This document shows, piece after piece, positions 5,571 through 6,661 of a stretch of DNA of 41,690 bases. This stretch comes from Bacteroidota bacterium (lineage in GTDB: Bacteria; Bacteroidota; Bacteroidia; JABEUT01). Made by a program: the position numbers and the translations under genes. Location of the stretch: positions 1 through 41,690 of the forward strand of contig JAKAOA010000010.1 in assembly GCA_021823405.1 (NCBI GenBank), given 5' to 3'. How positions within the stretch are numbered: position 1 is the stretch's first letter; every line of letters begins with the position of its first letter. Below the pieces are notes generated by a model. It did no database searches. It had not been told where the DNA came from and saw only the letters and a program-made list of their open reading frames with translations.

Positions 5571-5724
5571 AAATTTAAAATTCATCAAGATTCAATTAGC
5601 GACATTACAGGCATTTTTAGTTCTGTAATTAAGCAAGTGGTTCCATAATTCCATCTTCCCTCTCCTTTGAATCTTTAAAATAAACCAGCATGTAAAAAAT
5701 CATATTTATTTCTGACGAATTGCA

Positions 5725-5755
5725 TTGGGCAAATCTTCGTTTTCAATTTACTTTG
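5725..5755 (+). promoter_or_regulatory. Promoter for the CCGUAA hairpin RNA
   Basis: TTG at 5725-5727, then exactly 20 bp, then TTACTTTG at 5748-5755, which matches TAnnTTTG in seven of eight positions. This is the Bacteroidota -33/-7 arrangement. Transcription would begin near 5760-5765, about 15 bases before the first hairpin. Confidence 0.55.
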
Positions 5756-5761
5756 TATCCA

Positions 5762-5905
5762 TAAACTAAGATATTAGGCGCCCCGTAAGGCACAGAATAA
5801 ATAGACAGTCCCGTAAGATTGCACAGGTTAATCACCCCGTAAGGTGAGTCTGAAAATGATAAGGAACCGCCGAGATAAAGGCCGGGTTCTTTATCATTTT
5901 ATTTA
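5762..5905 (+). ncRNA. Candidate small RNA with three identical CCGUAA-loop hairpins and a terminator
   Basis: Three hairpins each present the hexaloop CCGUAA closed by a C-G pair, at loop positions 5783-5788, 5811-5816 and 5837-5842 (spacing 28 and 26). The stems differ in sequence yet still pair. They are GCGCC/GGCAC (one mismatch), CAGUC/GAUUG (one G-U) and UCACC/GGUGA (perfect). This covariation points to an RNA rather than a protein-binding DNA repeat. A 16-bp stem (5853-5868 with 5885-5900, one G-U), with a small inner GCC/GGC hairpin, ends in a T-rich tail and fits an intrinsic terminator. The predicted transcript is about 140 nt. It could be a free sRNA or a leader of the phasin-like gene 165 bp downstream. 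I do not recognise a named RNA family. Confidence 0.62.
5853..5905 (+). terminator. Intrinsic terminator of the candidate RNA
   Basis: 5853-5868 pairs with 5885-5900 over 16 bp with a single G-U. The loop holds an additional 3-bp GCC/GGC stem. The 3' arm ends in TTTT followed by ATTTAAT. The stem is long and AT-rich at its base, as expected for a Rho-independent terminator. Confidence 0.65.
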
Positions 5906-6064: not shown

Positions 6065-6661
6065 ATGGAAAATAAAAGCCCAAGCGCCGATAATACCTTC
6101 GATAAATCTGAAAAGGTAAAGAAGAATATGCGCGGTTACGCCGAGAAATCGAAAGAGACAATACAGGAGATGATTAATTCGAGCATGAAAATACTCGAAG
6201 ATGCAATGGATGAAAATTCAAAGACAGTTGAAAATTTAAAGAACAACTTTGGGTTAGGTGATTTAGGAAAAGAATCTGCTACTGATATAAAGCCATCGCT
6301 TGACAAGTCAGTAGAACTCGCCGAAGATACTTTTGATGCTATAATAAATTCCTACACCAGACAGATGGAACAGATAGTGGATTTTAACACCAAACTTGTC
6401 GACTTGGTAAAAGAATCCGACCCCGACAATGCGGATAAGTTTCTTGACCTTATAAATGAAAATTTTGACCGTACGCGCAATGCAACAACGGGCAATACAA
6501 AAGAGATATTGGATTTATTCAACAAACACTCCAATTTAACCCTTAAATTCAACGAGAAATTCGCCAAAACAGTCAATTCCCAAGTGGATAATCTGTTCCA
6601 GACACAAAAAAACAGCCTTAACAGATTTACCAGTTGGGCTTCGGAATGGTGGAAAGAATAG
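6065..6661 (+). CDS. Phasin-like, all-helical hypothetical protein
   Basis: 198 residues, strongly charged and without signal peptide, membrane segment or cysteine. It is rich in Lys, Glu, Asp and Asn and predicted to be almost wholly helical, with amphipathic stretches over about 15-65, 80-140 and 140-190. It ends in a Trp-rich tail (FTSWASEWWKE). Overall character and size resemble phasin-family granule or coiled-coil proteins, but no decisive motif is present and no polyhydroxyalkanoate synthase is in the window. It stands alone downstream of the CCGUAA-hairpin RNA, which could regulate it. The start at ATG 6065 is the first in frame. A minus-strand open frame over its 3' end is a shadow. 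Confidence 0.7.
   Translation: MENKSPSADNTFDKSEKVKKNMRGYAEKSKETIQEMINSSMKILEDAMDENSKTVENLKNNFGLGDLGKESATDIKPSLDKSVELAEDTFDAIINSYTRQMEQIVDFNTKLVDLVKESDPDNADKFLDLINENFDRTRNATTGNTKEILDLFNKHSNLTLKFNEKFAKTVNSQVDNLFQTQKNSLNRFTSWASEWWKE

Follow-up and report, generated by a model that had tools for sequence, protein, structure and literature searches.

Decoy RNAs of the CsrB type vary in copy number and keep a constant loop. The RNAs described here share with CsrB, CsrC, RsmY and RsmZ the possession of many hairpins with a single loop motif in variable copy number, single-stranded linkers and a terminator at the end. They differ in that their loops read CCGUAA or CUGUAA without GGA, and in that no CsrA gene was found in 41 genomes, whereas control genomes were positive. 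CrcZ-type sponges likewise require Hfq, and this protein was absent from all 60 genomes tested for it (controls positive). Both proteins were therefore rejected as partners, and of the analogy to CsrA sponges drawn in the original prediction for this locus, the form of the RNA stood while CsrA itself fell away.

Within the Bacteroidota, the small RNAs GibS, FopS and Rfp18 have been reported to act by base pairing (PMC11697453, PMC9723704). GibS and FopS, which are linked to RbpB in Bacteroides (PMC11697453), resemble the RNAs studied here in phylum, in occurring in several copies per genome, in having a terminator and in a possible connection to an RRM protein. FopS, however, consists of a single-stranded 5' seed and one terminator hairpin (PMC11697453), and the present RNAs are arrays of many hairpins with conserved loops. 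Rfp18 of Flavobacterium is a conserved small RNA with several stem-loops, the third of which is described as base-pairing (PMC9723704); as a multi-stem-loop RNA of Bacteroidota it is similar to the arrays and a possible relative of them.

The predicted RNA in the window and its promoter

The window, i.e. the whole stretch of 41,690 nucleotides that was analysed, contains three hairpins on the plus strand, at positions 5778–5793, 5806–5821 and 5832–5847. Each of them exposes the hexaloop CCGUAA (5783–5788, 5811–5816 and 5837–5842, respectively), with loop-to-loop spacings of 28 and 26 nt. Hairpins 2 and 3 have stems of 5 bp (CAGUC/GAUUG and UCACC/GGUGA), and the stem of hairpin 1 is made up of 3 bp, one C·A mismatch and 1 bp. 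The three hairpins at 5778–5847, the mismatch included, thus correspond to those of the original prediction. They are followed on the same strand by an intrinsic terminator at 5853–5900, which comprises a 16-bp stem (5853–5868 paired with 5885–5900) and an inner GCC/GGC pairing and which is kept in the genus relative G010. Upstream, at 5725–5755 on the plus strand, lies a Bacteroidota-type promoter (TTG at 5725–5727, N20, and TTACTTTG at 5748–5755) with a putative start site. Both signals had been proposed before and were recovered from sequence and fold; together they set the limits of a predicted small RNA of ~140 nt (5761–5901, plus strand). The fold of the entire stretch has an energy of -41.3 kcal/mol (z = -4.4), and none of 200 shuffled sequences folded as well. 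No open reading frame of at least 50 aa occurs within 5760–5905. One clear copy of the RNA was detected in its own genome by BLAST and likewise one by covariance model R1; the hairpins do not form a dispersed DNA repeat. At 6065–6661, the window encodes a phasin-like protein that scores below family cut-offs (TIGR01985, 22 bits) and has several paralogues in the genome.

A feature overlooked in the original prediction, as was the phylum-wide distribution described below, is a Crp/Fnr-type palindrome, TGTAAAAAATCA, at 5691–5702 (plus strand; genus consensus TG[A/T]-N6-TCA), the centre of which precedes the likely start by ~64 nt. A third half-site, CTGAC (5712–5716, plus strand), is part of the promoter element and follows the palindrome at a fixed N9 spacing in six of six promoters. 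The complete pattern, TG[A/T]-N6-TCA-N9-NTGAC, which we take to be a half-site arrangement of the Crp/Fnr type, was common to all promoters of RNA copies checked in the genus (6/6), and its distance from the -7 box hardly varied. In the genus relatives compared, this box was similar to TTACTTTG and equally distant from the palindrome. In the window's own genome, the extended pattern AATCAYATTTATTYCTGACG occurred a single time at zero mismatches, namely at the window promoter. Use of the element as a regulon marker was rejected, as the remaining matches in the genus equalled the control count.

Four relatives within the genus were compared. The copy in G010 is 78% identical, keeps all three loops and is followed by a phasin-like gene from the same family. 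The mismatch of the window's hairpin 1 is absent from this copy, the stem being perfect (UUGCC/GGCAA), and its hairpin 3 has G-C in place of an A-U pair of the window, both sides having changed. In G001, G002 and G006, the RNA is longer or different and is located elsewhere, with the same promoter element; there are two loci each in G002 and G006 and at least nine such hairpins in G006. In these three genomes, the final hairpin is itself the T-tailed terminator and bears the same loop.

Distribution of the arrays and covariation of their stems

Scanning public genomes for three CCCGTAAG words yielded at least 119 stretches. Carriers include Adhaeribacter aquaticus, A. aerolatus and Chitinophagaceae bacterium IBVUCB1 as well as MAGs labelled Flavipsychrobacter and Chryseobacterium. 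The window's class was represented by 396 genomes, of which model R1 picked up 42 at a cut-off of E 0.001 per genome (~0.4 chance matches expected; part of the 42 were inspected by eye), and several of these had two loci. The matches included families lacking the CCGTAAG triple, e.g. the GC-rich group f9. When the window and 16 array loci were compared with Rfam 15 at permissive thresholds, only unrelated models were returned, all below their gathering scores (E 0.0022 to 0.77).

The architecture is the same in many Bacteroidota families: 3–21 hairpins with an almost invariant loop, C[C/U]GUAA, and freely covarying stems, so that the repeated fixed loop within a predicted promoter–terminator unit that characterizes decoys of the CsrB/RsmZ type is found here as well. 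Across the arrays we counted CCGUAA 139 times and CUGUAA 16 times, and any other hexamer at most three times. The terminal hairpin was T-tailed in 17 of 47 arrays, compared to 6 of 216 other hairpins. Linkers were A-rich on the array strand (42% A and 16% T, versus 30 and 29% in the flanks), and all loops lay on one strand, with no loop hairpin on the opposite strand in 42 arrays. Some arrays (L133, L184, L183 and L353) alternate between hairpin types, have an extended stem (CAG-CU-GACC/GGUC-U-CUG) and reach up to 21 hairpins. In two others (L202 and L057), TTACG stands just ahead of some hairpins and is complementary to CGTAA of the loop; it could mask the loop through alternative pairing.

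Stem pairing was assessed on units selected by the loop with the stem ignored, which renders the test unbiased. In the 27 Bacteroidota stretches among the matches listed, stem positions 2–5 were paired in 84, 86, 82 and 67% of the units, compared to 51, 59, 48 and 39% expected, and many pair types occurred in the stems. A second sample, drawn from genomes of the window's class, gave the same outcome (91, 92, 91 and 70%). No comparable pairing was observed among 258 units from other phyla or 39 viral units. Accordingly, a viral origin was rejected, as 17 viral contigs bearing the sequence pattern had no paired stems, and matches to the pattern outside the Bacteroidota (Streptomyces and others) were discarded for the same reason, bar Chloroflexota tandem repeats with constant stems. 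The latter occur in an Anaerolineae MAG (L054, L081 and L089) as ~22-bp units of the form TTTC-CCGTAA-GGAA and look like an unrelated minisatellite.

Twenty-four three-hairpin segments could be aligned cleanly and had double-sided changes in 136 cells versus 48 in shuffles, a count that is partly circular because a stem length of 4 bp or more (3 bp in the case of the window) had been a condition for picking the segments; the loop-chosen test is the unbiased one. The double changes were spread over 16 of the 18 pairs, and slid structures collapsed. Model R2, built with the window's genus held out, detected the window at 5777–5848 with 50.5 bits (E ~3e-10) and recovered every genus relative tested; its noise ceiling was 26.3 bits in 1.34 Mb of other sequence, loop-word viral contigs included. 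Homologues that keep the loops and carry compensatory changes in the stems are thus found across the Bacteroidota. The prediction of a new, separate small RNA with a repeated exposed site holds on this evidence: the loop is kept, the stems covary, the promoter is conserved and a terminator often closes the array. Judged from sequence comparison, we regard it as well established that the arrays represent an undescribed conserved structured RNA family with a predicted promoter and terminator, which, as far as the searched data go, is confined to Bacteroidota. No published description of the loop or the arrays was found in open-access papers.

Neighbouring genes, single-site hairpins and candidate partners

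The genes next to the arrays differ between families and include those for YchF, AtpG, TruA, ThyA and secreted proteins (sequences read by eye). ToxN-type nucleases were not among the recognised adjacent genes, which vary by family (read from the neighbours only). About half of the arrays share a strand with their downstream gene; of the neighbours, about half are oppositely oriented. Genes for secreted proteins made up 27 of 64 array neighbours versus 519 of 2045 ORFs, as judged by a crude signal-peptide rule on related rows; this frequent nearness makes a local role of the arrays possible. In Adhaeribacter, all four arrays (L045, 2895 and 7294, minus strand; L087, 1449 and 3313, plus strand) are located 41–103 nt behind a same-strand gene for a small secreted protein of ~90–98 aa (MKKIILTLVLAAQTAFGFA...), and the RNA may therefore be 3'-UTR-derived there.

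On the 1.92-Mb contig of IBVUCB1, only four CCGTAA hairpins outside the array reach a stem length of 7 bp or more. Three of the four are in 5' or 3' untranslated regions of genes from a single secreted-protein family with 14 members: two follow the gene (774022 and 1014638) and one precedes the ATG by 66 nt (1476091). The array itself is located upstream of another member. The proteins are ~183 aa in length, partly encoded in tandem (L273–L332 and L403–L438 of G406 C2, e.g. 1473108–1477531), and have no match in Pfam or NCBIfam. Between the UTR sites before and behind genes, the stems differ and the loop is kept. This pattern, noticed post hoc, is how a sponge and its single-site mRNAs would be expected to look and hints at such a relationship; the single-site hairpins are few and were seen in one lineage only, and duplication of the genes may have spread them.

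As to proteins that may bind the loop, an RRM_1 protein is encoded in G000, in 30 of 38 array genomes and in 11 of 22 genomes without arrays. The association is weak, and because eight array genomes lack it, the RRM protein is not obligatory and at most a partial answer. Any partner would be one other than CsrA or Hfq.

A proposed decoy function and its alternatives

We lean, at slightly better than even confidence, towards reading the arrays as a Bacteroidota-wide family of trans-acting multi-site decoy RNAs whose partner binds the loop. Going beyond what the comparison itself shows, we infer that the array RNA is transcribed, its transcription being switched on by a regulator of the Crp/Fnr type, and that all C[C/U]GUAA loops would bind a single partner, most probably an RNA-binding protein. 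By titration, the array RNA would sequester this partner, and mRNAs otherwise bound via single loops of like sequence would be released or exposed.

The main rival, to which we give a rather low probability, is a base-pairing small RNA whose loops serve as identical seeds for UUACGG, located either in a set of mRNAs or in a single conserved RNA. The occurrence of C or U at loop position 2 (139 versus 16) is compatible with a fixed G opposite, and there is the precedent of GibS, FopS and Rfp18 (PMC11697453, PMC9723704). In a related genome (1.2 Mb), however, UUACGG was not enriched within 40 nt before start codons (2 versus 6.6 expected), although UUACAG was, by about twofold, in G406 C2 (27 versus 14.6 expected); this sole excess could reflect composition or be promoter-related. 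Moreover, none of the 20 tRNAs on the contig analysed contains UUACRG, and if the seed is constant over families whose GC content differs widely, its target would have to be a universal RNA. The lack of UUACGG enrichment ahead of start codons leaves the pairing near surE suggested in the original prediction without support. Less probable still is that the RNA acts in cis on the gene next to it (the phasin-like gene at 6065 in the case of the window), as a leader or a 3' UTR element. G010, like the window, has a phasin-like gene downstream, the downstream gene shares the strand of the array in about half of the cases, and the position of the four Adhaeribacter arrays closely behind a small secreted-protein gene would fit a 3' UTR. 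The 16-bp terminator separates the window RNA from the phasin-like gene, however, and G001, G002 and G006 carry the RNA elsewhere with the same promoter element, while different families have different neighbours, about half of them oppositely oriented. Because the terminator intervenes and the relatives lie by other, unrelated genes, the previously considered role as a leader of the phasin-like gene is unlikely.

A palindromic DNA-level repeat (REP, MITE or transposase substrate) that has no function as RNA appears very improbable to us. The arrays are like REP or BIME elements in being palindromes clustered between genes; the regular units in L193, L202, L212 and L184 are consistent with growth by tandem duplication, and the hairpins could act as single-stranded DNA. 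Yet carrier genomes usually have one or two loci rather than many scattered ones, and a conserved loop with a free stem is the opposite of what is seen in REPs. The location of all loops on one strand, with a promoter at one end and a terminator at the other, equally sets the arrays apart. The PyrR-binding hexaloop of pyr operon leaders is CNGNGA closed by C-G, and the arrays, with their C-G-closed CYGUAA, agree with it at three of the four conserved loop letters. A decoy for PyrR is nevertheless the reading to which we assign the least weight, and PyrR was rejected as partner. A PyrR-family match was present in 29 of 30 genomes tested, a point in favour, but the protein is near-universal and occurs with or without arrays. 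Position 5 of the loop is A instead of G in practically all members; the arrays are multi-copy and lie outside pyr leaders, and no CNGNRA hairpin of at least 5 bp was located just before pyrR at any of 28 loci.

If the decoy function applies, the arrays might be part of a global post-transcriptional sequestration system that is the Bacteroidota's own and arose independently of Csr/Rsm, in which an RNA-binding protein would bind C[C/U]GUAA and arrays of 3–21 loops would titrate it, under Crp/Fnr-type control in the window's genus; we hold this wider proposal tentatively, at somewhat less than an even chance. The Bacteroidota are a dominant phylum, and with CsrA and Hfq absent from the genomes tested, the route by which global RNA regulation proceeds in them is in question. 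The covariance model (A2/R1) is a finder of array RNAs in new genomes, and conserved array RNAs, with their fixed loop, provide a ready bait for the missing RNA-binding protein.
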